From: a virus | DNA length: 24,193 nucleotides | Strand: one strand, 5' to 3' | IMG/VR virus record: IMGVR_UViG_3300048104_000233 | Coordinates: 1 to 24,193 of that record | Shown here: positions 1 through 23,253 of the stretch, piece by piece | Position numbering within the stretch: the stretch's first letter is position 1 | Layout: every line of letters starts with the position of its first letter | The notes under the pieces: generated by a model | What the model saw: only the letters and a program-made list of their open reading frames with translations | Told to the model about the DNA's origin: nothing | The model's database searches: none | Translations under genes and position numbers: made by a program

Positions 1-2379
1 TATGCCAGAGACTTCGTAGGTAACTATAGTAGAACATCTGTGCTCAACTCTATTGCAACATTTGTAGGTACAACAGGAACTCGTTACAGTGATGAGTCCA
101 ACCAGTTATGGCATGGCAATAACTCTGGATTCCCAGAGTGGACAACGGGTACTGGATCTGCCACAGGTTATGGACAGAACGGTGATGGTAACTCACGTTT
201 TGTGGGGGAATCACCAAAGGGACAAGATGTCATATGGGACGTTACAAACCAAGACGCAGACTCAAACGCAGATGGTGGTTGGAACTCATCATTTTTCCCA
301 GTAGATAAAACTAAGAAGTATCGTTTCTCTGTATGGATTAAGAGACCAGTGACTGGTTATGTAGGTGGAAGTGATTCAACTTCTGGTTATACTTACCTTG
401 GTGTTAATGGTTTCAATAGTAGTGGATCTAACATTGGTGTTCGTTATACTGGTAGTACTGGTACTACAACAAACCCATACTTTTATGCCACCCGTTGGGG
501 ATCCCTTGTAGGTACTTCTGAAGCAAATTTCTGGGGTGGGTATGGTGATTTGTTTGGTGGAGAAGGTGACTTCAGTAATGGTACTGGTATGTCACAAGAG
601 TCTGGAAGTAATGCAACAAACACAGTTATCACTAAGTTAAACCCAGGCCATTCTCAATACGTACTTGAACAATCAATGGGTGTTGCCTCTACAGAGTATC
701 AACTTAATCTAAGTAATTTATTACCAAGTAAAACATATGTAATGTCTGGTTGGTATGCAGAATCATCTGACTATAATGCAAGTGAACGTATGTTCCATGC
801 TCGTACGTATAGTTCAAGTGGTGCACATATTGCAACAGGTTCTGGTATTGGTACTGTTTTAGAAACAAAAGTAGTTGATGGTGTTACTTGGAGATTTGTT
901 TATCAAACAATTAATTCACCTGCCGATGCCAGTGGATCATTCAATTGGTATGTTGGTTATGCGGGTGACACATATTCTGGTAAGAGATACTATACAGATT
1001 TAAGAATAGAAGAGGGAACATTCCCTAAAAGAGCAAACTGGTATCTATTGGTTGGTCACGTACATCCATATACATCTGCGGTTGGAATCAGTACAGATCC
1101 AGAAACTGGTGTCTACAACCACGCAGGAGAAAAGATTTTAGGTGGTACTGACTATGTTTGGGTAGATGGTACAACACAATCACGTCATAGATCATATCTC
1201 TATTATGCCACAAACACCGCAACACGTCAACAGTTCTGGGAACCACGTGTGGATGATACTACTCATTCATCATTCCCAACAGTCGCAGAGATGATTGCTA
1301 ACTCTGGATCTTACACTCGACAGTTTGCAGGTAACTACACAGGCAACTATTCTCGTACATTCGTAGGTAACTACTCTCGTGCATTTGCAGGTGAGTATAC
1401 AAGAACACGTGTTACCGATTACGTAGGAGATTACATAGGAAACTTTGCCAGAGGATTTGTGGGTGACTATGCCAGAGGATTCGCAGGAGATTACATAGGT
1501 AATTATTCCCGTGGATTTGTGGGAGAGTATACAAGAAACTCTACCCGTACCAGAGTATCAAGTTATGCAGGTGAATTTACTGGAAACTACACACGCACAT
1601 TTGTGGGTAACTATACCAGAACTTCATTAAGAACTCGTGTATCCAATTATGCAGGTAACTTCACTGGTGATTACACTCGTGGATTCCTTGGAGAATATAC
1701 ACGTACATCAACTCGTGTACGTAACTCAAACTTCTTAGGTAACTTTATTGGTAACTACACAAGAGATTTTGCAGGAGAGTATACAAGGGTATCAACACGT
1801 ACCAGAGTATCTTCGTACGTTGGTAACTATACTCGTGGATTCCTTGGGGAGTATACCAGAACATCATTACGTACTCGTGTGTCGGCATTCATTGGTGACT
1901 TCACAGGTAATTACTCTCGTGAATTTGCGGGAGAATATACACGAATATCAACACGTACCAGAGTATCTTCCTATTTGGGTAATTACTCAAGAACGTTTGT
2001 AGGTAATTATTCTCGTAACTCGACCCGTGTATCTACCCGTACCCGTTTGTCTATATACTCACGTACAAGAGTTTCTGCATACTCTGATAACTATACAAGA
2101 AACAGAGAGACAGATTTTGTAGGAGATTTTATTGGTAACTATGCAAGAGGATTTGTAGGTAATTACTCTCGTGACTTTGCGGGTGATTATACAAGAAACT
2201 TTGCGGGTGAATACGTTGGAGACTTTACTGGAAACTACACCAGAACATTTGCAGGTAACTATGCAAGAGACTTTGTGGGTAATTACTCCAGAGACTTTGT
2301 GGGTAACTATGTGGGGACAACCCTAAATTCGGGTACCGAAGTAATCGATACCTATACATTATATGTAAGAGTAGCATAA
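1..2379 (+). CDS. tail-fibre-like structural protein, 5'-truncated by window edge
   Basis: This is the C-terminal part of a large fibre-like virion protein. The first in-frame start is a GTG at 40, but codons 1-39 already encode the repeat motif YARDFVGNYSRTS in the same frame, so the gene begins upstream of the window. About 40-1311 encodes Gly/Ser/Thr/aromatic-rich sequence resembling carbohydrate-binding modules: KYRFSVWIKR near 310-350, NPYFYAT near 470-492, WYLLVGHVHPY near 1040-1071 and FWEPRVDD near 1238-1260. About 1312-2316 is a long tetrapeptide-type repeat. The protein ends in TYTLYVRVA, an ending I associate with marine T4-like virion proteins. No catalytic motif is seen. A host-contact or fibre role is inferred from composition and from the position just before the fibre/neck block. 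The sequon-rich repeat and the nearby glycosyltransferase raise the possibility of glycosylation. Confidence 0.85.
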   Translation, partial: YARDFVGNYSRTSVLNSIATFVGTTGTRYSDESNQLWHGNNSGFPEWTTGTGSATGYGQNGDGNSRFVGESPKGQDVIWDVTNQDADSNADGGWNSSFFPVDKTKKYRFSVWIKRPVTGYVGGSDSTSGYTYLGVNGFNSSGSNIGVRYTGSTGTTTNPYFYATRWGSLVGTSEANFWGGYGDLFGGEGDFSNGTGMSQESGSNATNTVITKLNPGHSQYVLEQSMGVASTEYQLNLSNLLPSKTYVMSGWYAESSDYNASERMFHARTYSSSGAHIATGSGIGTVLETKVVDGVTWRFVYQTINSPADASGSFNWYVGYAGDTYSGKRYYTDLRIEEGTFPKRANWYLLVGHVHPYTSAVGISTDPETGVYNHAGEKILGGTDYVWVDGTTQSRHRSYLYYATNTATRQQFWEPRVDDTTHSSFPTVAEMIANSGSYTRQFAGNYTGNYSRTFVGNYSRAFAGEYTRTRVTDYVGDYIGNFARGFVGDYARGFAGDYIGNYSRGFVGEYTRNSTRTRVSSYAGEFTGNYTRTFVGNYTRTSLRTRVSNYAGNFTGDYTRGFLGEYTRTSTRVRNSNFLGNFIGNYTRDFAGEYTRVSTRTRVSSYVGNYTRGFLGEYTRTSLRTRVSAFIGDFTGNYSREFAGEYTRISTRTRVSSYLGNYSRTFVGNYSRNSTRVSTRTRLSIYSRTRVSAYSDNYTRNRETDFVGDFIGNYARGFVGNYSRDFAGDYTRNFAGEYVGDFTGNYTRTFAGNYARDFVGNYSRDFVGNYVGTTLNSGTEVIDTYTLYVRVA
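1312..2316 (+). repeat. degenerate aromatic/Gly/Arg tetrapeptide repeat array inside the fibre gene
   Basis: About 335 codons repeat the pattern (F/Y)-(V/A/I/L/T)-G-(N/D/E)-(Y/F)-(S/T/A)-R-x, so an aromatic residue falls roughly every fourth position. This alternates with S/T-R-T-R-V-S segments. About eighteen N-x-S/T sequons (mostly NYT or NYS, also NST and NFT) occur in it. Copies differ widely at synonymous positions, for example GGT/GGA and TAC/TAT, and Arg as CGT or AGA. The repeat is therefore conserved at the peptide level rather than as recent DNA duplications. Confidence 0.9.
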
Positions 2380-2438: not shown

Positions 2439-2927
2439 ATGGCATTTAAACGATGGATGGATAATGCTTTTTGGGAGACCGAAGAGAAAGAAAAACTGAA
2501 TTGTATACTTGAGATGGAAGATGATGTAAATCGTCAAACACGACAGGTGATGTTACTCAGTAAATTAGATAAGGACGGCAAAGAGAATGAACTCTTTAAT
2601 GAAGTTATCGAAGCACTTGGTACGGAATCAATTGATAAAAATACCGAAGAACGTAAGGTTCGTAAGAAAGCAGAAAAGGAAGAAGACAAGCAACGTGATA
2701 CAGAACACGCACGTGCACGTAAGTTAGAAGATCTTTTCAATTACAAACTTGAAGTCTTTGAAACAGAGCAAATCAAAAACTCTAAGAATAGAGCACTGAA
2801 AGCAAAACTAAGACGTGCTAAATCTAAGGTGGAAGTTAACTTATATGCAATCATGTTGTTTCAGTATGAGTTAGATCTTGCAGAAGAAGCAAAAGCAGAA
2901 CCGATTGGAGATGATTCGAGTGAGTGA
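2439..2927 (+). CDS. hypothetical charged, helical/coiled-coil protein
   Basis: A 162-residue protein I do not recognise by function. It is dominated by Glu, Lys and Arg and looks almost wholly helical, with likely coiled-coil stretches around residues 65-105 (EERKVRKKAEKEEDKQRD) and 110-155. No signal peptide or membrane segment is seen. It has a good ribosome-binding site (AGGAGA, about 10 bases before the ATG) and is the first gene after the sigma70-type promoter. Its 3' end overlaps the start of the glycosyltransferase gene, which suggests translational coupling. It could be an accessory or scaffold protein of the modification cassette or a fibre-associated chaperone; both are guesses from context. 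Confidence 0.8.
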   Translation: MAFKRWMDNAFWETEEKEKLNCILEMEDDVNRQTRQVMLLSKLDKDGKENELFNEVIEALGTESIDKNTEERKVRKKAEKEEDKQRDTEHARARKLEDLFNYKLEVFETEQIKNSKNRALKAKLRRAKSKVEVNLYAIMLFQYELDLAEEAKAEPIGDDSSE

Positions 2928-3657
2928 AAAGAGTAGAGGATATGTATTAGTTGCATCCAACAAGATTAACTTCTACAAATATGCTATTAATCTGGCAGAA
3001 TCTATTATTGATTATTATGAGGATGCTAAGATTACATTGTTTTGTGAACCTTGGATGTTGGAAGAACAGGATAAAGATCTCTTTGATGAGATCCATGATT
3101 GTTCTTCGCATTACCGTGCTAAACTGGAAGGTATGTGGAAGTCACCATATGACTTGACGATGTACCTCGATGTGGACATGGAATGTGAACATGAAGATAT
3201 TAAGGTTTGTTTTGATGAGTTAGAAAAAAGTGAACATGATATTCTCTTCTCTGAACTTACAGATGATAGATCGTATGTTTATGCAGAACGAGAGTTTGAT
3301 ACACCCGAAGGACGAAAAAAGTTTGTGCTGTGTGGTGGGATCTGTTTGTACGACAACACAGTTCCTCTTGTTCAAGAATTTATGAAAGACTGGGATACGT
3401 TAACAAAAGATCAGATGGATGGTCGGTGGTGGCCCGAAGGATACAATAAATCCTTGCAGTCGTGGGATCAGTTCTCATTGTGGTGGTTAACAGAAAAAGA
3501 CGAAAAATATAAAGACCTCAAGTATGGGATCATAGACGATGATCTTAGGTGGAATTATTATAACGCACTGAACTGGGCAAGAGGCCCACGTCCAAAAGGT
3601 GCTATAGTTATTCGACACTATTCTTGTGGTTTGGATAAGGACGGGCATATAATATGA
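2911..3657 (+). CDS. GT-A-fold glycosyltransferase-like protein
   Basis: A predicted nucleotide-sugar-dependent glycosyltransferase of 248 residues. The key feature is SPYDLTMYLDVDME, with a DxD metal/nucleotide-sugar motif at D87-V88-D89, as in GT-A-fold (GT8-like) enzymes. It follows an N-terminal beta-alpha start (GYVLVASNK at residues 10-18). Later features are LCGGICLYD (about 130-138), SWDQFSLWWL (about 174-183) and a C-terminal IRHYS. I chose ATG 2911; an in-frame TTG at 2878 would add 11 Lys/Gln-rich residues that look like read-back into the upstream gene. GTG 2920 is better spaced from GGAG (2907-2910) and remains possible. It overlaps the upstream gene, and its stop overlaps the next start as ATGA. 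The acceptor is unknown; virion proteins, host glycans and DNA are all open. Confidence 0.75.
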   Translation: MIRVSEKSRGYVLVASNKINFYKYAINLAESIIDYYEDAKITLFCEPWMLEEQDKDLFDEIHDCSSHYRAKLEGMWKSPYDLTMYLDVDMECEHEDIKVCFDELEKSEHDILFSELTDDRSYVYAEREFDTPEGRKKFVLCGGICLYDNTVPLVQEFMKDWDTLTKDQMDGRWWPEGYNKSLQSWDQFSLWWLTEKDEKYKDLKYGIIDDDLRWNYYNALNWARGPRPKGAIVIRHYSCGLDKDGHII

Positions 3658-4352
3658 GCAAACACATGATAGACGTAGAAGTCAAGAACAAGGAATTGTT
3701 GAATATACTGAATAGGTATACTCGTTTTCTAACAGAAGATAAAGAATCGTTTCAAAACGATTTTCATCGTACCTGTCAAGACTATAAAGATCAGAGGCAT
3801 TTCCTTGCAGGAGAAGGTCACTTAAATGAGATCGTAGAACAAGGAGACAGGCACGAAGGATTCCCAGATCAAATGTATGGTTATGAGTTAACTGTTAGTA
3901 GAAAGGAACATCAATTCTTTAGTGAAGATTGTCACCCAACACAACGATTAGAAAGAACTTCTGAGTTAGGTGTGATGCAAACAGAAATTATGGAATGGTT
4001 AGGTGTAAGGACGTGTGCATTGACTGCATACTACCCACCAGGCGGTTTCATATCATGGCATAACAATGCTAATGCAGCGGCATACAATTTAATATTTACA
4101 TGGTCAGAAGAAGGTACTGGGCAGTTTAACTATCTGGATCCCATAACTAAAGAAATAGTTGAAATGCCAGATAAGAAAGGGTGGCAATGTAAGGCGGCAT
4201 ATTTCGGACACTATGGTGAACCAGAAAGATTAATGTACCATACTGCCAAGACAGACTGTTGGAGATGCACCGTGTCATTTACATTTGATACTCAAGACCT
4301 ATCTGAAGTATTGCGTCACGATTTAATAGAAGAAATAAGTTCAGAAGAATAG
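3654..4352 (+). CDS. 2OG-Fe(II)-oxygenase-like protein (copy 1)
   Basis: A 232-residue protein resembling the viral 2-oxoglutarate/Fe(II) dioxygenase (prolyl-hydroxylase-like) double-stranded beta-helix. The putative site is WHNN with H136 and N138, followed by a distal H196 (MYHTAK) and R204 as the likely 2OG-binding Arg. The canonical HxD aspartate is Asn here. It is paralogous to the protein at 22636-23253: both contain a YPP.GFI.WH.N.NA segment, NLIFTWSE.G.G.F.YLD, KKGW/KVGW.CK..YFG and YH.A.T.C.R. It starts inside the stop of the glycosyltransferase gene (ATGA), so the two are probably translated together. Hydroxylation followed by glycosylation of a virion protein is a plausible joint role but is inferred. 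The Asn could also mean altered metal binding or a non-catalytic protein. Confidence 0.72.
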   Translation: MSKHMIDVEVKNKELLNILNRYTRFLTEDKESFQNDFHRTCQDYKDQRHFLAGEGHLNEIVEQGDRHEGFPDQMYGYELTVSRKEHQFFSEDCHPTQRLERTSELGVMQTEIMEWLGVRTCALTAYYPPGGFISWHNNANAAAYNLIFTWSEEGTGQFNYLDPITKEIVEMPDKKGWQCKAAYFGHYGEPERLMYHTAKTDCWRCTVSFTFDTQDLSEVLRHDLIEEISSEE

Positions 4353-4365
4353 AGATATTCCTCAG

Positions 4366-4427
4366 TTCCAGTTTCTAAAACATATAAATAAAACCATAGA
4401 CAACAACTTTGGTTTGAGAAACTGGAA
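4366..4427 (+). promoter_or_regulatory. inverted repeat that can sequester the start of the 4427 gene
   Basis: Two perfect 11-nt arms, TTCCAGTTTCT (4366-4376) and AGAAACTGGAA (4417-4427), are exact reverse complements. After one mismatch the stem continues with AAAC (4378-4381) pairing GTTT (4412-4415). The right arm covers the GAG Shine-Dalgarno-like bases and the first base of the ATG at 4427. The TATAAATA late promoter (4383-4390) lies in the loop. RNA reading through from upstream can fold; RNA starting at the late promoter lacks the left arm. This matches the arrangement known for T4 genes e, soc and 49. Confidence 0.75.
4383..4390 (+). promoter_or_regulatory. T4-type late promoter
   Basis: An exact TATAAATA lies 37 bases before the ATG of the 4427 gene. 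Transcription would start a few bases downstream, around 4396-4398 (inferred), inside the loop of the surrounding inverted repeat. It probably serves the structural block from 4427. Confidence 0.8.
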
Positions 4428-4786
4428 TGGCAGATTACGAAGATTTTACAATTGATCAAGGGGCAGACGTAGCAATAGAGTTACATCTGCAAGAGCAGGA
4501 TGGTTCTAAAAAGAACTTGACTGGTCATAGTGCCCTTGCTAAAATGAAACGCAGTTACAACTCTACAGATAGTGATGAAATTGTTTCATTCACTACTATA
4601 GTTTCATCACCTGCCACCGATGGTATTCTTACCCTCGCACTAACCAACTCTCAGACTGATTCACTCAATCCAAGATTGAGGTATGTCTATGACGTAGAAC
4701 TATCTTATCAAGATAGTAATAGTCAAACAATAATTGAAAGGATATTAGAAGGGAAGGTTAAAGTCTCTCCTTCTGTGACAAGGTAA
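4427..4786 (+). CDS. BppU-N-like virion protein
   Basis: A 119-residue beta-rich protein with the layout of the phage baseplate upper-protein N-terminal domain (BppU-like). It has an early F.IDQGAD..IELHLQEQDG segment, then KKNLTGHSALAKMKRSY and a closing ILEGKVKVSPSVTR strand. Such small proteins are common next to fibre genes in marine T4-like phages and probably act as fibre or baseplate adaptors. Four bases separate it from the next gene. No strong Shine-Dalgarno is seen; the weak GAG at 4416-4418 and the first base of the start codon lie in a hairpin arm, so translation is probably controlled by which promoter made the RNA. The exact virion position is unknown. Confidence 0.7.
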   Translation: MADYEDFTIDQGADVAIELHLQEQDGSKKNLTGHSALAKMKRSYNSTDSDEIVSFTTIVSSPATDGILTLALTNSQTDSLNPRLRYVYDVELSYQDSNSQTIIERILEGKVKVSPSVTR

Positions 4787-4790
4787 ACTT

Positions 4791-5015
4791 ATGGCAACTA
4801 CAGTATCTCTTAGAGGAAAGACAAGGGTCAAACGAGTAATCGTTGGAAAACCTATAAGAAGGATTACACAATCAAGTGGTTCTGTGGGTGCTCTGGCAGA
4901 TGTTAACATCGAAGGATTAGTTAATGGTGCAGTGCTTGTATATAATGAATCTACCGAAAGGTGGGAAGCAACGGCAGAATTAAATCAACAAGAAGTTAAC
5001 GGAGGCCAATACTGA
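4791..5015 (+). CDS. small fibre-associated structural protein
   Basis: A 74-residue protein with a basic N-terminus (SLRGKTRVKRVIVGKPIRR) and the motif ALADVNIEGLVNGAVLVYNE followed by RWEAT. That D-x-x-x-G-x-x-L-x-Y-(N/D)-x-x-x-x-x-W pattern is common in phage tail-fibre and appendage proteins. Its C-terminus, NGGQY, resembles the DGGTY end of the next protein. It sits between the BppU-like gene (4-base gap) and the long fibre gene, whose start overlaps its stop as TGATG. A ribosome-binding site GGAGG for the next gene (5001-5005) lies inside it. Its role is unknown, probably an appendage adaptor. Confidence 0.65.
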   Translation: MATTVSLRGKTRVKRVIVGKPIRRITQSSGSVGALADVNIEGLVNGAVLVYNESTERWEATAELNQQEVNGGQY

Positions 5016-7039
5016 TGGCATCAATATTAAGAATTAAAAGATCGGGGACTGCGGGTGACCCGACAACACTGGGGCAGGGTGAATTAGCATATTCATCTCT
5101 TGCCGATAACGGTTCCAATGGTGGTGATCGTCTATATATCGGTACTGGCACCGAAGTAGCAGGAAATGCTGTAAACCACGAAGTAATTGGTGGTAAGTAC
5201 TTCACATCTAAACTGGATCATGCATTAGGAACACTGACCCCGAACAGTGCAATCCTTGTAGATGCAAACAGTAAGATTGATGTACTGAATGTAGATAATG
5301 TAACCTTAAATGGTAACACTATTTCTACTACAGATACAAACGGTGGACTAATACTTGCACCTAACGGTACAGGTACTACTACAGTCAACTCTGTTGTTTT
5401 CGGAACAACTGTTGACGTAGTTGGCAAACGTATTACACAAGTTGCCACACCTACAGCAGACTCAGATGCCGCCACTAAGGCATACGTAGATGCAGTGACC
5501 GCAGGTCAGACATTTACTATCGGTGACGGATCTGCTACAGATACATTTAATGCCGCCTCTGGAACATTGTTGTTTAATGGTCTTACTGGTATTACAACTG
5601 CGGTAACTAATGACGCAGTATCCATTGACCTTGACGATACATCTGTAACAGCAGGAGACTATGGATCTGCTACTGCTATTCCAACATTCACAGTTGATGG
5701 ACAGGGTAGGTTAACTGCCGCTGGTACAGCATCAATCAGTACTTCCCTAAATGTACAGGGAGATACAATACCACTTGCATCACAAAGTTTACTCTTCGCA
5801 TCTTCGGGTGACGGAATATCTTTTGCGTATGATAGTGGTACAAATACTGCAACTTACTCTATGGCAACTGCCACAACATCTGCCAAAGGTGTTGCAAGTT
5901 TTGCTACGGCAGACTTCGGAGTTTCAAGTGGTGCAGTAAGTCTTAACGATGCAGTCGTTAAAGGTGTAGGTGCAAACTCTGGTAGCACAACACCAACAGG
6001 TCATTCGTTTAGTATTATAGGTGATAGTTCACAAGGTATCACAACAAGTGGTTCTGGTGCTAATGTCACGGTGACAATAGCAGACGCAACCGTAAGTGCA
6101 AAGGGTGTTGCCTCATTCGCAACCGCAGACTTCGGAGTATCCTCTGGAGCAGTTTCTCTTAATGACGCAGTACTAAAAACTATAACAACTGACACAGGTG
6201 CAGGACTAACACCATCAAGTCATGGGATCTCTATCGTTGGTGGAGAAGGTGTCGATGTAACTCACGCAGGGGCAGTTATTACTGTCACAGGTGAAGATGC
6301 AACATATACCAATAAAGGTATAGCATCATTCGACACCAATGACTTTACAGTAACCTCTGGTGCTGTAAGTCTTAAATCTGGATCTGTTGCTAACGCAGAC
6401 CTTGCCAATGATGGCATTGTTATTGGTAGCACAGACGTATCACTTGGTGGTACAATCACCAGTCTGGTAGGACTAACAAACGTAACAGTAGATGATATTA
6501 CTCTTAACGGTAATGTAATATCTACACCGTCTTCTGTAAACGACATTATACTTGATCCAAAAGGTGGAGATAGTGCAGGTGGTCGTGTCATAATTCAAGG
6601 TGACCTCTTAGTACAAGGTACTGAGACAATAGTCAACTCGACTACTATGACTATCAATGACAAGAACCTCGTTCTTGCTGATAGTGCCGCTGATGCAACT
6701 GCCGCTAACGGTGCAGGTATTACAATTAACGGTGCCGCTGCTACTTTACAATATCTTGTAAGTGGTGATAAGTGGGAAGTAAACAAAGACTTCAATACAA
6801 CTGGTGAGTTGTACAGAAACGGAACTGCCATTGGTGAGTACATCCAAGATGTTATGGGTACAGCAATTGCAGTCGGTGAAGGTCTTGACTTTGCATATAA
6901 CGATGGCGCTGGTACTCATACATTCTCAGCAGAGTTGGCAACAATAACGAATAAAGGTGTCGCATCATATGATAGTGACCAATTCACAGTAACCTCTGGT
7001 GCTGTAACTGTATCCACACTGGACGGTGGTACGTATTAA
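5015..7039 (+). CDS. long repeat-containing fibre/whisker-like structural protein A
   Basis: A 674-residue fibrous virion protein. The N-terminus carries ILRIKRSGTAGDPTTLGQGE, followed by a LYIGTG motif, the usual start of phage appendage proteins. RITQVATP.ADSDAATKAYVDA (about residues 130-152) is a classic tail-fibre shaft motif. Four copies of K-G-(V/I)-A-S-(F/Y)-x-x-x-x-F-x-V-(T/S)-S-G-A-V follow, roughly 71-72 residues apart. A DKNLVLADSA module (about 547-556) is shared with the next gene. The protein ends DGGTY. GGAGG lies about 9 bases before the start and the start overlaps the previous stop (TGATG), so the choice is firm. In T4 this position, just before gp13, holds gp12 and the fibritin gene wac. 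A whisker or short-fibre role is inferred from position, not from close sequence similarity. Confidence 0.8.
   Translation: MASILRIKRSGTAGDPTTLGQGELAYSSLADNGSNGGDRLYIGTGTEVAGNAVNHEVIGGKYFTSKLDHALGTLTPNSAILVDANSKIDVLNVDNVTLNGNTISTTDTNGGLILAPNGTGTTTVNSVVFGTTVDVVGKRITQVATPTADSDAATKAYVDAVTAGQTFTIGDGSATDTFNAASGTLLFNGLTGITTAVTNDAVSIDLDDTSVTAGDYGSATAIPTFTVDGQGRLTAAGTASISTSLNVQGDTIPLASQSLLFASSGDGISFAYDSGTNTATYSMATATTSAKGVASFATADFGVSSGAVSLNDAVVKGVGANSGSTTPTGHSFSIIGDSSQGITTSGSGANVTVTIADATVSAKGVASFATADFGVSSGAVSLNDAVLKTITTDTGAGLTPSSHGISIVGGEGVDVTHAGAVITVTGEDATYTNKGIASFDTNDFTVTSGAVSLKSGSVANADLANDGIVIGSTDVSLGGTITSLVGLTNVTVDDITLNGNVISTPSSVNDIILDPKGGDSAGGRVIIQGDLLVQGTETIVNSTTMTINDKNLVLADSAADATAANGAGITINGAAATLQYLVSGDKWEVNKDFNTTGELYRNGTAIGEYIQDVMGTAIAVGEGLDFAYNDGAGTHTFSAELATITNKGVASYDSDQFTVTSGAVTVSTLDGGTY
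5879..7015 (+). repeat. four K-G-(V/I)-A-S modules in fibre protein A
   Basis: The motif beginning AKGVASFATADFGVSSGAVS recurs with its Lys codon at 5885, 6101, 6314 and 6953. The gaps are 216, 213 and 639 (three times 213) bases, so one repeat unit is about 71-72 residues. The last gap is an exact multiple of the unit but holds a different module. Copies 1 and 2 are the most alike. Confidence 0.8.
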
Positions 7040-7082: not shown

Positions 7083-8936
7083 ATGTCGAACACACTTCTA
7101 AAGATTAAAAGAAGTGCGGTAAAGGGTAAGTCCCCTACCACATCAAATATTTCATTAGGTGAGTTAGCACTCAATACTAATGATGGAAGAGTCTTTTTCA
7201 AAACAACAGACTCTTCTGGCACTTCTGCTATTGCGACACTGAGAGAGATCTCTGGTGGGACGGGTATTACCGCAACGGATGGTGTTCTTAATCTTGACAA
7301 CCAAGTAACTGCACAGACAGTAGGTAATGCTACAACTGTGCCTCGATTAACAATCAACGCACAAGGTCAAGTAACAGGTATTGCTACTGCAACAGTTGCA
7401 GGTGTATCTGGGGTTGACTTTGATAGTTCAAATGGTACACTACAGGTTGCCACAAGTGCGGGTAACTTCTCGGATGTTATTACACTTGATCCATATACTA
7501 CAGCAGATCTAACAGAGAATACAAATCTCTATCATACAACTGCTCGTGTAAATACGGCATTTGATACAAGACTTGGTACCAAAACAACAGACAACTTAAC
7601 AGAAGGTTCAAGCAACCTCTATCATACCACTGGAAGAGCACGTAGTTCTATTAGTGTTTCTGGTGATTTAGCATATAACAGTACAACTGGTGTAATATCA
7701 TTCTCACAGGCAGCGGCACCAGTACTAAGTGTTAATGGTAATACTGGTTCAGTATCATTACAAACTAATGATATTGCAGAACATGCAGATAATCTATATT
7801 ACACAACTGCAAGATTCGATTCAGACTTTGGTGATAACTCAACATCCGATTTATCAGAAGGGACTAACCTCTATCATACCACTGGAAGAGCACGTAGTGC
7901 AATAAGTGCATCAAATAGTGGTACAGGATATGGTTCTATCGGGTATACATCTGGTACAGGTGTATTACAGTATACTAAAGTAACAAACGCAAATATCAGA
8001 TCTGCTATTAGTGCAAGTACTGGTATTAATATATCCAATGGTGCAATCAGTACAACCATTACTCAATACACAGATGCAATGGCAGATAGTTCTGCTAAAA
8101 ATGCAATCTCAGTTACAGATGCAGGTGGTGATGGATCACTTGCATACAATAACTCTACTGGTGTAATCACTTATACAGGGCCAAGTGCTTCTGAAGTTCG
8201 TGCACATTTAAGTGCAGGTACTGGTGTTTCATACAGTAATGGTCAGTTCAGTATTGGACAGGCAGTAGGAACTACAAATGATGTAACATTTAATGACGTA
8301 GTTGTATCTGGTGACTTAACCGTCTCTGGTGATCAAACAACTCTAAGTGTTGGTACGTTGACGGTTGGTGATAAGAACATTGTCATCGCAGACAGTGCGA
8401 CAACATCCGCACTTACAGACGGGGCAGGATTAACATTCGGTGCATGGTCATCTGGTACTATTCCAGTATTGAAATGGGATCATGGTAACACTCGTTTTGA
8501 TTTCAACAAACCAGTAAAGGCATCGAGTTTTGTTGGTAATATCACAGGTAACGTAACTGGTACAGTATCAAGCATATCTAACCACGACACAGATGCTCTC
8601 AGTGAGGGATCCAGTAATCTGTATCACACTACTGCTCGTGCAAGAGGTGCAATAAGTGCATCTTCTGGTGTTAACTATAATAGTGGAACAGGTGCGATAA
8701 CAGCAGATCAAGGTGAGGTTAGAGGATTCTTTTCCGCAGGTGGTGATCTTGCATACAATGCAACAACTGGTGCATTCTCATTTAGTGAGACATACTCAAC
8801 ACCTGCCGAACTATTAACAGCAATTAAAACAGTTGACACAAACACAAGTGGTCTGAACGCAGATACACTTGATGGTCAAGAAGGAACACATTATAGAATT
8901 AACGTGTACAATTCAAGTGGTACACTACTAAACTAA
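7083..8936 (+). CDS. long repeat-containing fibre/whisker-like structural protein B
   Basis: A 617-residue fibrous virion protein that starts like its neighbour: LLKIKRSAVKGKSPTTSNIS, then LGELALNTNDGRVFFKT. It carries repeated L-(S/T)-E-G-(S/T)-(S)-N-L-Y-H-T-T-(G/A)-R-A-R-(S/G)-(A/S)-I-S motifs, a known tail-fibre repeat. It also has two G-(D/S)-(L/I)-(A/G)-Y-(N/T)-S-x-T-G-V segments and a GDKNIVIADSATTSALTDGA module near residues 434-453 shared with protein A. The C-terminal stretch ADTLDGQEGTHYR is typical of phage fibres. It ends 10 bases before gp13 with AAGG between. T4 has the whisker gene wac directly before gp13, so a neck/whisker or fibre role is likely but not proved. Confidence 0.8.
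   Translation: MSNTLLKIKRSAVKGKSPTTSNISLGELALNTNDGRVFFKTTDSSGTSAIATLREISGGTGITATDGVLNLDNQVTAQTVGNATTVPRLTINAQGQVTGIATATVAGVSGVDFDSSNGTLQVATSAGNFSDVITLDPYTTADLTENTNLYHTTARVNTAFDTRLGTKTTDNLTEGSSNLYHTTGRARSSISVSGDLAYNSTTGVISFSQAAAPVLSVNGNTGSVSLQTNDIAEHADNLYYTTARFDSDFGDNSTSDLSEGTNLYHTTGRARSAISASNSGTGYGSIGYTSGTGVLQYTKVTNANIRSAISASTGINISNGAISTTITQYTDAMADSSAKNAISVTDAGGDGSLAYNNSTGVITYTGPSASEVRAHLSAGTGVSYSNGQFSIGQAVGTTNDVTFNDVVVSGDLTVSGDQTTLSVGTLTVGDKNIVIADSATTSALTDGAGLTFGAWSSGTIPVLKWDHGNTRFDFNKPVKASSFVGNITGNVTGTVSSISNHDTDALSEGSSNLYHTTARARGAISASSGVNYNSGTGAITADQGEVRGFFSAGGDLAYNATTGAFSFSETYSTPAELLTAIKTVDTNTSGLNADTLDGQEGTHYRINVYNSSGTLLN
7614..7898 (+). repeat. 33-bp exact direct repeats (7614-7646 and 7866-7898)
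   Basis: Two identical 33-base copies encode NLYHTTGRARS and lie 252 bases (84 codons) apart, in frame. More diverged copies encode NLYHTTARVN (near 7520) and NLYHTTARARG (near 8616). The exact identity contrasts with the diverged copies and suggests recent duplication or conversion. Recombination between the two copies would delete exactly 84 codons and keep the frame. Confidence 0.8.
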
Positions 8937-12311: not shown

Positions 12312-12653
12312 ATGACAGAAAAAAACATTGATAAAGATTATGAAACTTCGAGGGATACCTATAACGATTTGATCGAGAAGGGTAGAGAATCTCTTGAGTT
12401 AATGATAGAGGTGGCACGTGAAAGTGAACACCCCCGTGCATTCGAAGTTCTTTCGGGCATGATCAAAAACATTTCAGATGTCAATGACAAACTTATGGAT
12501 CTTAATAAGAAGTATAAGGATGTCACCAAGGAAGACGATCCCAAGAAACTCGAAGGAACTACCAATAACAATCTATTCATTGGATCTACTACCGACTTAC
12601 AAAGACTATTACAGGATGATGCCAAAGTGATTAACCATGACGATTCAGACTAA
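12312..12653 (+). CDS. gp16: terminase small subunit gp16
   Basis: A 113-residue homologue of T4 gp16 (164 residues), which forms a ring that regulates the packaging motor and recognises DNA. The central helical pair is visible (SRDTYNDLIEKGRESLELMI, then EVARESEHPRAFEVLSGMIKN), followed by ISDVNDKLMDLNKKYKDV. The C-terminal tail has NNNLFIGSTTDLQRLL, a conserved end motif in this family. The protein is shorter than in T4 at the C-terminus. It overlaps the gp17 start by 17 bases, so the two terminase subunits are probably translationally coupled. The ribosome-binding site is poor. Confidence 0.88.
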   Translation: MTEKNIDKDYETSRDTYNDLIEKGRESLELMIEVARESEHPRAFEVLSGMIKNISDVNDKLMDLNKKYKDVTKEDDPKKLEGTTNNNLFIGSTTDLQRLLQDDAKVINHDDSD

Positions 12654-14244
12654 AGAGTCCTACTTAGGCAATCCAAACGTAAAAAGAGACGGGATAGCAG
12701 AAGAGTGGACAAAACAAGATATATTAGAATACCAAAAATGCATGAAGGATCCTGCATACTTTTGTCGTACCTATGTAAAGGTGGTGCATCTTGACAAGGG
12801 ACTGGTATCATTTGACCTTTACGACTATCAAGAAAAAATGTTCGAACACTTTGATAAGAATAGGTTTGCTATTGTACTTGCTTGTAGACAGAGTGGTAAG
12901 TCGATATCAAGTGTCGGATACTTACTCTGGTACGCATTATTCCACCCCGAAAAAACAATTGCTATCCTTGCAAACAAAGGTGCCACTGCACGTGAGATGT
13001 TATCAAGGGTTACTCTCATGCTTGAGAATCTCCCCTTCTTCCTACAGCCTGGTACAAAGGCACTTAACAAAGGTAGCATTGAGTTTAGTAATAATTCTCG
13101 AATTATTGCCAGTGCTACTTCTGGTTCCTCTATTCGTGGTATGTCTGTTAATTTACTTTTTCTCGATGAGTTTGCTTTTGTTGAAAACGCAACTGAGTTC
13201 TATACTTCAACCTATCCAGTTGTATCTTCGGGTAAGGATACAAAAGTTATCATCACGTCCACAGCAAATGGAATCGGAAACCAGTTCGAAAAGATCTGGA
13301 CAGGGGCAATACAAGGAGTAAACGAATACAAAGCATTTAGAGTAGATTGGTGGGATGTTCCTGGCCGTGATGAGAAATGGAAATCAGAAACAATATCTAA
13401 TACATCTCAGTTACAGTTTGACCAAGAGTTTGGTAATACCTTCTTTGGAACTGGGGACACACTAATAAACGCAGAGACTTTAATGGGTCTACGTGGTCGT
13501 AATCCTCACAGAATACTTGAATCTGGGGATGCTTTATGTTATAGTGAACCTGTTAAGGATCACGAATACATCATGACAGTTGACGTATCGAAGGGAAGAG
13601 GACAGGATTATTCCACGTTTAACGTGATCGATATTACGGAACGACCATTCAAGCAGGTGTTGACGTATCGCAACAATACTATTTCTCCCTTGCTCTTTCC
13701 TAATATTATATATAAGTATGCGAATCTCTACAACGAGGCATGGGTTGTTGTTGAGGCAAATGATCAAGGAACTGTAGTTTGTAATGGTCTGTATTATGAT
13801 TTGGAGTATGAAAACCTTCACACATCTTCCGCAGTAAAAGCAAACTCACTTGGTATCGAGATAAACCGCAAGACTAAAAGACTTGGGTGTTCGTCTATTA
13901 AAGATATACTTGAGAGTAATAAATTAGAAATATACGATGAGAATACTATACTTGAGATCTCTACCTTTGTAGGTAAGGGACAATCATATCAAGCATCTGA
14001 CGGCAACCATGATGACCTAATGATGAACTTGGTTATGTTTGGATACTTTGTATCTACTCAATTCTTTGCTGATATGACAGACATCAATCTAAAACAGATG
14101 ATGTTTGAAGAAAAGATGCAAGCGATTAAGGACGATGTGCTACCCTTCGGTGTTATTGACGATGGGATAGATGATGGATTAATAACAGAAGGTGAGTTCA
14201 AAGGGTGGCATTCGATAGACACTCTGGGTGACCGTGAATTCTAA
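12637..14244 (+). CDS. gp17: terminase large subunit gp17 (packaging ATPase-nuclease)
   Basis: A 535-residue DNA-packaging motor. The ATPase domain has Walker A ACRQSGKS (residues 82-89, K88), Walker B LLFLDE (173-178, D177/E178) and the coupling motif TSTAN (207-211). The RNase-H-like nuclease domain has the acidic triad D316 (TVDVSKGRGQDY), E373 (VVEAND) and D459/D460 (GNHDDLMM). All key residues are present, so the enzyme should be active. T4 gp17 has 610 residues; the missing part is an N-terminal extension, since YLGNPNVKRDGI at residues 9-20 aligns with an internal T4 segment (YMGLPNLKRANI). That supports the start at 12637 despite the lack of a strong ribosome-binding site. Its 5' end overlaps gp16. 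Confidence 0.98.
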   Translation: MTIQTKESYLGNPNVKRDGIAEEWTKQDILEYQKCMKDPAYFCRTYVKVVHLDKGLVSFDLYDYQEKMFEHFDKNRFAIVLACRQSGKSISSVGYLLWYALFHPEKTIAILANKGATAREMLSRVTLMLENLPFFLQPGTKALNKGSIEFSNNSRIIASATSGSSIRGMSVNLLFLDEFAFVENATEFYTSTYPVVSSGKDTKVIITSTANGIGNQFEKIWTGAIQGVNEYKAFRVDWWDVPGRDEKWKSETISNTSQLQFDQEFGNTFFGTGDTLINAETLMGLRGRNPHRILESGDALCYSEPVKDHEYIMTVDVSKGRGQDYSTFNVIDITERPFKQVLTYRNNTISPLLFPNIIYKYANLYNEAWVVVEANDQGTVVCNGLYYDLEYENLHTSSAVKANSLGIEINRKTKRLGCSSIKDILESNKLEIYDENTILEISTFVGKGQSYQASDGNHDDLMMNLVMFGYFVSTQFFADMTDINLKQMMFEEKMQAIKDDVLPFGVIDDGIDDGLITEGEFKGWHSIDTLGDREF

Positions 14245-14335: not shown

Positions 14336-16153
14336 ATGGCTGTTAAACCTGCTTCTCCTCGGATCAATATCAGTGAGATTGACAAAACGGCAATAGTGCC
14401 CGCTGTTGGTTCTTCTGGTGGTGGTTTCGTAGGAAACTTCCGTTGGGGCCCTGTGCACGAAAGAACTTTGATCAGTGATGAAACTGGTTTGGTTACTACG
14501 TTCGCAAGTCCAAACGACACGAACTCAGTGGATTTTCATTCCGCTGCGTATTTTTTAAAATACTCACAAACACTACAAGTAGCACGTGAAGTAGGCGCAG
14601 GGGCACAAAATGCTCACAGTGCAACTACTACACTTGCGGACTCCGCAGGGGGCACTCAACTACTTGTAAATAACCTCGCACATTGGGAAGATACTGTTTC
14701 TTCTGCTGTAGGTGAAGGTGCTTCTAAACTCTCATCTGGTACTTGGATTGCAAAATATCCAGGCGTACTTGGAGATGCTTTAAGTGTATCTTTCTGTCCT
14801 GCTTCTGATTCTGCTGGCGCAGAACACTTCACTGGTTGGGCATATGCCTCAAACTTTGATGGGAAGCCTGGAACATCATCTTATGCAAATACAAACGGTG
14901 CATCAAACGATGAAGTACACTTAGTGGTCTTAGACCGTACTGGTGCTATCACTGGAACGCCTGGCGCTGTTCTTGAAAAGTTTGCTTATCTTTCTGTTGC
15001 TAAAGGTGCTCTTACTCCAGATAACTCACCTAACTATATCGCAGATGTAGTGAATTCAAATTCACAATACATTTGGACTGGTTACTTTGGTGACGATACT
15101 GCATTCGGTGGTTCTGCATTGAACCTCGACAGTGACGCTGGATGGGGAACTATACCAACTTTAGACACTGCTGTAAACTACGGTTTAGGTAGTGGTCTTA
15201 CAGATGCAGCGATGACTTCTGACTTAGGTGGTGGACATGACGGTGCAACTCTTGGTAATTCTGATTTCTTAGCAGGTTACGACCTCTTCGAAGACAAACT
15301 TACTACAGAGATTGACTTCCTAATTGCTCCTTCTTATGGTACAGCATCAAATGGTGCAACAATTGTAAATGACCTAACGTCAATTGCAACTGCACGTAAA
15401 GATTGTATCGTAGTAGCATCTGTGGACAAGAGTGGTGTTGTGGGTAAAACTAACAGTCAACAATCAGCAAACGCAGTAACTTTCGTTGACGGATTAACAA
15501 AGTCTTCTTACTTGGTTGTAGATAACAACTACTTAAAAGTCTTTGATAAGTATAACGACAAATACATCAATATACCTGCATGTTCAAGTACAGCAGGATT
15601 GATGGCGGCAAGTGATATTATCGCAGATCCATGGTATTCACCTGCGGGTCAGAGACGTGGTAACTATCGTGGTGTTACTGACATCATTGCCAACCCAAAC
15701 CAAACCCAACGTGATCAACTGTACAAAGCAGGTGTTAACCCAATTGCCAATATTCCTGGCTCTGGTTTAATCTTGTTTGGTGACAAGACGTTGGAAAGCA
15801 GACCTTCTGCATTTGACCGTATTAACGTACGTAGATTGTTCATAGCAATCGAGAAGTCAATTGGTGAAGCTGCTAAAAATGTAATGTTTGAATTCAATGA
15901 CGAGTTTACTCGTGCAGAGTTTACAAACATTGTAGAACCTTTCCTCAGACGAGTAAAAGGTCGAAGAGGTATTACTGACTTTAGAGTTGTATGTGATGAC
16001 ACAAACAACAATCAAGAAGTAATTGACAATAATCAATTCGTGGCAAACATCTTTGTGAAACCTGCACGTTCTATCAACTTCGTTCAATTGAACTTTGTTG
16101 CTGTTAGAACTGGTGTAGACTTCGAAGAAGTTGTTGGCACGGTTGGCGCATAA
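14336..16153 (+). CDS. gp18: contractile tail sheath protein gp18
   Basis: A 605-residue homologue of T4 gp18 (659 residues), the sheath subunit that contracts around the gp19 tube. The N-terminus (KPASPRINISEIDKT, then GFVGNFRWGPVHERTLI) and the C-terminal core (QRDQLYKAGVNPIANIPGSG, FGDKTLESRPSAFDRINVRR, LFIAIEKSIGEAAKNVMFEF, FVKPARSINFVQLNFVAVRT) are the conserved parts. The middle (about residues 130-320) is Gly/Ser/Thr/Asp-rich and variable, as expected for the surface-exposed protrusion. A late promoter lies upstream, and gp19 follows after 11 bases with an AAGGAG ribosome-binding site. Confidence 0.96.
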   Translation: MAVKPASPRINISEIDKTAIVPAVGSSGGGFVGNFRWGPVHERTLISDETGLVTTFASPNDTNSVDFHSAAYFLKYSQTLQVAREVGAGAQNAHSATTTLADSAGGTQLLVNNLAHWEDTVSSAVGEGASKLSSGTWIAKYPGVLGDALSVSFCPASDSAGAEHFTGWAYASNFDGKPGTSSYANTNGASNDEVHLVVLDRTGAITGTPGAVLEKFAYLSVAKGALTPDNSPNYIADVVNSNSQYIWTGYFGDDTAFGGSALNLDSDAGWGTIPTLDTAVNYGLGSGLTDAAMTSDLGGGHDGATLGNSDFLAGYDLFEDKLTTEIDFLIAPSYGTASNGATIVNDLTSIATARKDCIVVASVDKSGVVGKTNSQQSANAVTFVDGLTKSSYLVVDNNYLKVFDKYNDKYINIPACSSTAGLMAASDIIADPWYSPAGQRRGNYRGVTDIIANPNQTQRDQLYKAGVNPIANIPGSGLILFGDKTLESRPSAFDRINVRRLFIAIEKSIGEAAKNVMFEFNDEFTRAEFTNIVEPFLRRVKGRRGITDFRVVCDDTNNNQEVIDNNQFVANIFVKPARSINFVQLNFVAVRTGVDFEEVVGTVGA

Positions 16154-22144: not shown

Positions 22145-22636
22145 ATGGCACTTACAACTAACAAAAATTACTTACAACCTACAGGATTCAAGTTTATTGT
22201 ATCTGGGGAAGAATATCAGAACCTACAGTTCTTTGCTCAGTCGGTTACACATCCAGGCGCAAATGCCAACCCAGTAGAACTACCTGTAGCACGTGTTACA
22301 TCTGTACCACTCGCAGGTGATAAGATCACATACTCTGAACTATCACTTGAAGTTATTCTCGATGAGGACATGAAGTCATATAAAGAAATGCAAAGTTGGT
22401 TGGAACGTATCGTCAATGAAGGACAGAGTAATACAATAGGTGGTGCCAAGACACAAACGTATTCTGATATTACTCTTATTATTCTCACATCACATAATAA
22501 CAACAACGTAGAAATTAAATACTTTGATTGTTTACCTACCAATATCGGTCAGATAAATATGACATCAAACACGGGTGATGTAGTATACCCAACATTCACA
22601 GTAGGATTTAGATTTAGTTCATTCGAGATAAAATAA
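22145..22636 (+). CDS. second tail-tube-fold protein (gp19-like paralogue)
   Basis: A 163-residue protein with the gp19/tube pattern: YLQPTGFKFIVSG, then FFAQSVTHPGANANPVELPV, GDKITYSELSLEVILDEDMK, SWLERIVNEG and a last strand FTVGFRFSSFEI. In gp19 the matching parts are NLFNCKVNFP, the QLPAS loop, the GDRTFEEWTVTVINDTGF hairpin and the final FQVTFQVQYWES. T4 gp54 (tube initiator) also has a gp19-like fold, but it is twice as long. Marine T4-like genomes commonly annotate this post-gp23 position as gp3 (tube terminator), so a tube-end role is likely. It shares the late transcript and a TAATG overlap with the following oxygenase-like gene. Confidence 0.75.
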   Translation: MALTTNKNYLQPTGFKFIVSGEEYQNLQFFAQSVTHPGANANPVELPVARVTSVPLAGDKITYSELSLEVILDEDMKSYKEMQSWLERIVNEGQSNTIGGAKTQTYSDITLIILTSHNNNNVEIKYFDCLPTNIGQINMTSNTGDVVYPTFTVGFRFSSFEIK

Positions 22637-23253
22637 TGCAGAACGTTAATATTATGAATCCCCAAGTGCAATCGTTGCTTGAAGAGTTTGAAATCTTTTT
22701 TCTTAATCAACAGGTTGAGTTAACCAATAATTACATTAATGGTGACAACCCAGACTATTGGACTGGAGATGAATATCTTGAGAGTATCATGAAAGATCAT
22801 GACGGTAGTCCCAAGAATTCAAACTCATATTGTTTAAAACCACAGCACTATAATGGACTTGACTCTCAATACGAAATAGTGTATAATGATATTAACGACA
22901 GACTCTCTCTTGAACTTGGAGTAAGTCACAGTGCATTGTCTCAGATGTATCCACCCGATGGGTTTATCGCATGGCATACGAATGAGAATGCAATTGGTGC
23001 CAATCTGATATTTACTTGGTCAGAAACTGGTGACGGTTACTTCGAGTACCTCGACAAAGAAGGTAAGAAAGTACGTATGCAAGACAAGGTGGGTTGGTCG
23101 TGTAAATCGGGTTACTTTGGTGGACGTGAAGATAATCAACATGTGTACCATTGTGCGAGAACAAACTGCAAAAGAATTACTCTTAGTTATGTGTTTGAGG
23201 GTTGTCCTACTGAATGGTGGGATGATTGTTTGGAGCACGTACAACGAGGATAA
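22636..23253 (+). CDS. 2OG-Fe(II)-oxygenase-like protein (copy 2)
   Basis: A 205-residue paralogue of the 3654-4352 protein. The putative active site is WHTN with H114 and N116, then distal H172 (VYHCARTNC) and R180. As in copy 1, the usual HxD aspartate is Asn, so the change is shared and not a random lesion. It also shares YPPDGFIAWHTNENA, NLIFTWSETGDGYFEYLD and KVGWSCKSGYFGG. The start overlaps the tube-like gene stop (TAATG), so the two are probably co-translated from the late promoter at 22115. The substrate is unknown; modification of a tail or capsid protein is one possibility. Inactivity or a different metal ligand set cannot be excluded. Confidence 0.72.
   Translation: MQNVNIMNPQVQSLLEEFEIFFLNQQVELTNNYINGDNPDYWTGDEYLESIMKDHDGSPKNSNSYCLKPQHYNGLDSQYEIVYNDINDRLSLELGVSHSALSQMYPPDGFIAWHTNENAIGANLIFTWSETGDGYFEYLDKEGKKVRMQDKVGWSCKSGYFGGREDNQHVYHCARTNCKRITLSYVFEGCPTEWWDDCLEHVQRG

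Follow-up and report, generated by a model that had tools for sequence, protein, structure and literature searches.

The fiber gene and its neighbors

We analyzed a stretch of viral DNA of 24,193 bases (IMG/VR virus record IMGVR_UViG_3300048104_000233, hereafter the window) that opens with the gene for a fiber protein containing a long aromatic tetrapeptide repeat. We confirmed that this repeat is real and that it keeps a strict four-residue register. Also, all 47 informative repeat fibers are followed by the same trio of genes, which encode a short charged protein, a probable GT-A glycosyltransferase, and a protein with a predicted oxygenase fold. The two putative enzymes may act on the fiber. 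The features of the locus are as follows.

1..36, + strand: repeat units 5' of the insert, YARDFVGNYSRT, amino acids (aa) 1-12 (from the translation)
37..1311, + strand: non-repeat domain inside the fiber, with aa 194-343 gp35-like
1312..2316, + strand: aromatic tetrapeptide repeat, aa 438-772 (from the translation and a periodicity count)
2317..2379, + strand: conserved fiber C-terminus, ...VIDTYTLYVRVA, common to nearly all complete repeat fibers
2439..2927, + strand: 162-aa charged protein, always immediately 5' of the transferase gene
2911..3657, + strand: putative GT-A glycosyltransferase (open reading frame from TTG 2878, likely start ATG 2911), with an invariant D98-x-D100
3654..4352, + strand: protein predicted to be a double-stranded beta-helix like that of prolyl 4-hydroxylase (P4H), with a 2-oxoglutarate (2OG) oxygenase fold; H136-x-N138, H196, and R204 are invariant
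4427..4786, + strand: putative LtfC-like or L-shaped tail fiber assembly-like protein, the next late-operon gene; this is context and not clearly a member of the module

The open reading frame (ORF) of the fiber (nt 1-2379) is open at its 5' end, and 792 aa are visible. As it begins with repeat units (aa 1-12), the stretch of about 425 residues that follows (aa 13-437) is an insert within the repeat, and the repeat continues past the window start. The initial annotation of this DNA had placed the repeat in the C-terminal third of the fiber, which is not assessable because the gene is cut at the window start. Homologous repeat ORFs are up to 3,347 aa long.

The repeat has a strict four-residue register

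Within aa 438-772, aromatic residues that lie 1-24 residues apart are separated by exactly 4, 8, 12, 16, 20, or 24 residues. (There are 55 aromatic pairs at distance 4 and none at 1, 2, 3, 5, 6, or 7.) All of the aromatics are on one register, as expected from the four-residue period in the initial annotation. The unit that it gave, (F/Y)-x-G-(N/D/E)-(Y/F)-(S/T)-R-x, is better described as two tetrapeptides, F-x-G-(N/D/E) and Y-x-(R/G)-x. In the window's repeat, position 0 is aromatic, position 1 is small or beta-branched, position 2 is Gly or Arg, and position 3 is Asn, Asp, Glu, or Thr; Lys, Pro, Cys, Met, His, and Trp are absent.

Scanning viral contigs, we obtained 47 loci; most of them contain repeat ORFs, frequently as a tandem pair. 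A pattern scan together with a transferase scan gave 200 more loci, partly on the same contigs. From all of these loci and from phage C48C1, we drew 125 non-redundant repeat proteins, which hold 47,152 in-register residues. Across the 125 fibers, position 0 is Tyr (52%) or Phe (36%); position 1 is Thr, Ala, Val, Ser, or Ile; position 2 is Gly (54%) or Arg (28%); and position 3 is Asn (41%), Asp (19%), Thr (15%), or Glu (5%). After Phe, the residue at +2 is Gly 83% of the time; after Tyr, Gly and Arg are about equally frequent there. The repeats use only about twelve kinds of residue: Lys and Pro make up just 0.05% and 0.36% of the repeats (versus 1.8% and 2.8% in the other parts of these ORFs), and Cys, Met, His, and Trp hardly occur.

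Identical 8-residue peptides at separate sites differ in 45% of their codons, versus 58% if codons were independent (27 overlapping pairs). As these differences are near the level of independent draws, it is the peptide and not the DNA that is maintained, and the earlier proposal of selection on the peptide with scrambled synonymous codons broadly holds.

The repeat does not match the known repeats that we considered. It is not collagen-like, as Gly-X-Y has a period of three with Pro and this repeat has a period of four with 0.36% Pro, and it does not have the period of pentapeptide repeats, as all of the aromatic spacings are multiples of four. A search of the repeat sequence against the PDB gave zero matches, and a literature search turned up no tail fiber with a tetrapeptide repeat.

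In a distant member (L131), the repeat is almost purely (F/Y)-T-G-x with few Arg, and the trio is still downstream; its partial ORF of 655 aa contains 137 overlapping aromatic triplets. Short "YxGN" matches in unrelated fibers (L053, L063, L097, L107, and L134) belong to different repeat types and were set aside.

The N-x-S/T motifs probably follow from two independent slots

The initial annotation reported about eighteen N-x-S/T sequons in the repeat and pointed to them as potentially modified motifs. There are exactly 18 in aa 438-772 (335 aa), which is three times the number expected from composition (6.0 ± 2.1, with a maximum of 14 in 10,000 composition shuffles, a null that disregards the repeat register). 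If sequons were kept as such, then Ser/Thr should be more common after Asn than after Asp/Glu in the same slot. In the window alone, Ser/Thr was present or absent at +2 in 15 and 7 cases for Asn, versus 11 and 12 cases for Asp/Glu (Fisher P = 0.23). In our first set of 41 fibers, Ser/Thr followed Asn in 44.7% of cases and Asp/Glu in 46.6% (odds ratio (OR) 0.93, P = 0.39; stratified Mantel-Haenszel (MH) OR 0.87). Across the 125 fibers (6,495 units), the values were 1668/4148 (40.2%) for Asn and 1043/2347 (44.4%) for Asp/Glu, with an MH OR of 0.79. In a stratified comparison of the same fibers, sequons were slightly depleted (1,536 observed and 1,614.5 expected, z = −4.4); the units are related by duplication, so this z overstates the certainty, but its sign is still opposite to what sequons would predict. 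The repeats hold between about 1.6 and 7.5 sequons per 100 residues (5th to 95th percentile), with about 1 or fewer in some, and sequon-poor fibers still have the transferase downstream (L036, with 3 sequons in 295 aa, and L023, with 8 in 701 aa).

Thus, the N-x-S/T motifs are very probably a by-product: they arise where two polar slots that are filled independently, i and i+2, happen to hold Asn and Ser/Thr. This independence leads us to reject N-glycosylation as a selected feature, so the suggestion that the motifs are modified was not borne out. The initial annotation had itself allowed that the NY(S/T) pattern might follow simply from packing constraints, and independently filled slots are what we see. 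For repeats of this kind, sequon counts need to be tested slot by slot.

An extended (beta) geometry would place the two slots side by side. The aromatic and Gly/Arg positions (0 and 2) would be on one face, and the beta-branched or small residues and Asn/Asp/Thr (positions 1 and 3) would be on the opposite face, where Asn at position 3 and Ser/Thr at position 1 of the next unit (+2) would be neighbors.

Three genes are linked to the repeat fiber

Among 52 distinct 3' ends of repeat ORFs with at least 2.5 kb of downstream DNA, 47 were followed by all three genes. (At the other five, what comes next is another repeat ORF, which continues beyond the contig end.) We did not find a repeat-fiber homolog that lacks the transferase wherever the downstream DNA allowed us to look. 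Conversely, when we started from the transferase, a repeat ORF lay within 1.5 kb at 71 of the 76 loci where upstream DNA is present, and in the three that we inspected of the remaining five, the repeat ORF is 2-4 genes upstream. The order and presence of the trio do not vary, even where the proteins are as little as 32% identical. In a set of 50,697 phage records, the trio was found solely in phage C48C1, which also carries a repeat fiber. The initial annotation described the nearest downstream enzyme as a glycosyltransferase; a likely glycosyltransferase is indeed close downstream and is invariably linked to this type of fiber, but the gene for the 162-aa protein sits between the two.

In bacterial genomes, we found one real match to the repeat pattern, on a phage-like contig that was binned in a metagenome-assembled genome and that has the full module; matches on the other three contigs were short chance matches. 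The one real match, JAAXIF010000028.1 (L253 and L256), is assigned to a Sphingobacteriales genome and contains at least two repeat fibers and the whole trio. The contig is probably of phage origin and was binned with that genome.

The proteins of the trio

We consider the protein encoded at 2911-3657 to be a likely GT-A glycosyltransferase on the basis of its sequence. D98 and D100, which form a DxD metal/nucleotide-sugar motif, are invariant in the family. In hhalign comparisons, this DxD aligned with the DAD of WaaO/WaaJ (20 columns, E = 0.056), with nothing significant beyond that stretch. Among 21 members of the family, 12 had weak matches to Pfam's GT2 (best E = 8e-4) and one had a weak match to GT8 (E = 7e-4); the window's protein itself matched neither.

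The oxygenase-fold protein was modeled with a predicted local distance difference test (pLDDT) score of 92.4, and the model has strands I-VIII of a P4H-type eight-stranded double-stranded beta-helix. Its best matches among solved structures are PHD2 (Z = 11.5) and the P4H of P. putida (Z = 11.2). H136, N138, H196, and R204 do not vary among the 24 sequences compared; we assigned their roles by strand order, from the predicted topology rather than from coordinates. Instead of an H-x-D...H metal triad, the protein has H136-x-N138...H196, with Asn in place of Asp. R204 is at the start of the strand at 204-211, where the basic residue that binds 2OG is expected. Thus, we describe it as a predicted P4H-like fold whose activity is putative, given the change from Asp to Asn. 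A comparison to E. coli YbiX with hhalign gave nothing significant. The window also encodes a second P4H-like protein (22636-23253, + strand), which has the same H-x-N motif, is 33% identical to the product of 3654-4352, and lies among head and tail genes, away from any repeat fiber.

The 162-aa charged protein is possibly a fiber-assembly or adaptor protein. In PHROG, it had weak matches alone, including a "tail fiber protein" at E = 0.03. Neither it, the fiber, nor the oxygenase-fold protein has a significant family in Pfam and PHROG, and profile searches of the transferase and the oxygenase-fold protein against the sequences of solved structures found no relatives.

A proposed role in fiber maturation

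We propose, with about an even chance of being right, that the repeat forms the tail-fiber shaft of a T4-like myovirus and that the two linked enzymes act on this fiber. The fixed module consists of the fiber, the 162-aa charged protein, the GT-A-type transferase, and the P4H-like H-x-N oxygenase-fold protein. The enzymes might, for example, hydroxylate side chains, and sugars might be added afterwards or in parallel. Action on the fiber is the most likely reason for the linkage of the four genes; the transferase activity, the oxygenase activity, and the fiber as substrate are all inferred. The shaft would presumably be β-rich. Since Lys is missing from the repeat and Pro is nearly so, the hydroxylysine and hydroxyproline chemistry of collagen is unavailable within it. 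The remaining candidate sites are Asn/Asp, Arg, Tyr, or Ser/Thr: possibly, Asn/Asp or Arg is hydroxylated, or Tyr/Ser/Thr is glycosylated. A more specific proposal is that this is a dedicated fiber-maturation cassette of a caudovirus and a bacterial-virus counterpart to collagen maturation, in which the H-x-N enzyme hydroxylates Asn/Asp, Arg, or Tyr and the GT-A transferase glycosylates an aromatic tetrapeptide fiber with a new fold; this seems doubtful as a whole.

If the trio does act on the fiber, then phages would use maturation by hydroxylation and glycosylation for a receptor-binding organelle, something that we did not find described in the literature open to our search, and in the repeat they would have a compact fiber material of a new kind. 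In any case, three unannotated protein families are tied to one type of fiber in aquatic T4-like phages.

Several observations weigh against the enzymes acting on such a shaft. The linkage can instead reflect a single inherited operon and not a relation of enzyme to substrate. The oxygenase-fold protein is without the usual Asp metal ligand, and the family is not specific to the repeat, since the paralog at 22636-23253 lies away from any repeat fiber. The Pfam support for the transferase is sub-threshold. Finally, AlphaFold2 gave no usable fold for a single repeat chain with 32 homologs (pLDDT 34.5).

The main rival for the role of the transferase is that it, and perhaps the oxygenase-fold protein, modify the host surface (e.g., lipopolysaccharide) to counter superinfection, and that they are neighbors of the fiber by way of a host-recognition island. 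A host-surface role was proposed for the glycosyltransferases of the pelagimyophage host-recognition cluster (PMC7029224). The transferase family has weak matches to GT8 and GT2. GT8 is a family typical of lipopolysaccharide enzymes. This explanation is possible but unlikely: the pelagimyophage cluster is hypervariable, whereas the trio is fixed in order and presence down to 32% identity, and a protein-hydroxylase-like fold would be an unexpected constant partner for lipopolysaccharide modification.

A second alternative is that the oxygenase-fold protein is catalytically dead and that, with the 162-aa protein, it helps an aggregation-prone, aromatic-rich fiber to fold or assemble, while the transferase modifies something else. 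The change from Asp to Asn in the metal motif is invariant (24/24), and a low-complexity, aromatic-rich repeat may need chaperoning. Still, this seems rather improbable because a mere scaffold would not require such strict conservation of the two His, the Asn, and the basic residue on the last strand. Also, AspH is an active two-His enzyme that lacks the acidic ligand.

Third, although there is a threefold excess of sequons and a likely transferase two genes downstream, it is highly improbable that the N-x-S/T motifs are true N-glycosylation sites for that transferase, because Ser/Thr at +2 shows no preference for Asn over Asp/Glu (OR 0.79-0.93), because some repeats have about 1 sequon per 100 aa or fewer and the transferase-linked L036 and L023 have very few, and because the DxD is of the GT-A type, unlike the known cytosolic sequon enzymes, which are GT41 and have the GT-B fold.

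Comparison with known systems

One close system is phage C48C1 (OQ984149, Kyanoviridae), whose complete genome has the same module with a repeat fiber of 3,347 aa; its module proteins are annotated only as hypothetical. The pelagimyophages are also T4-like aquatic phages with tail fibers and GT8-like transferases between the baseplate and neck genes. Their host-recognition cluster is hypervariable and its transferases were assigned to lipopolysaccharide (PMC7029224), whereas the window's trio is fixed to one type of fiber. In the mycobacteriophages Che8 and Rita, virions are glycosylated, with glycans reported on the major capsid protein (PMC11256854). As in the window, phage-encoded glycosyltransferases are tied to virion proteins, but neither a repeat fiber nor an oxygenase partner was described there.

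Glycosylation of collagen hydroxylysine, including by mimivirus R699 (PMC9546862), likewise combines, in a viral genome, a fibrous protein made of repeats with two partners, a 2OG hydroxylase and a glycosyltransferase. However, collagen is Gly-X-Y with Pro and Lys as substrates, while the repeat fiber has a period of four, no Lys, almost no Pro, and an H-x-N oxygenase. Finally, the HIF prolyl hydroxylase PHD2 and bacterial P4H (e.g., PDB 3oui and 4j25) share the predicted fold of the oxygenase-like protein, but with 9-12% identity and with Asp where the phage protein has Asn.

The insert, the C-terminus, and the wider context

The window contains T4-like late genes, such as the tail sheath (14336-16153), and the ORF at 12637-14244 reads as a large terminase. 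Part of the insert in the fiber (aa 194-343; nt 580-1029, + strand) resembles a domain of gp35, which in KVP40-like Vibrio phages is the hinge connector of the long tail fiber; the identity is 29-33%, and the best E is about 1e-13. The insert domain had no match among solved structures.

By strict patterns, 107 of the 125 repeat fibers have a C-terminus of the ETYTLYVRxA or VSTVKLWxRTA type, and the remaining 18 are mostly cut off or near-variants. This C-terminus is common to the tandem fibers of one phage, which suggests a shared docking or capping function. It was not seen at the ends of the neighboring fibers in the window (5015-7039 and 7083-8936). Four repeat ORFs (L064, L086, L106, and L143) have a different C-terminal domain with a Pro/Asp/Gly-rich tail, or are open.
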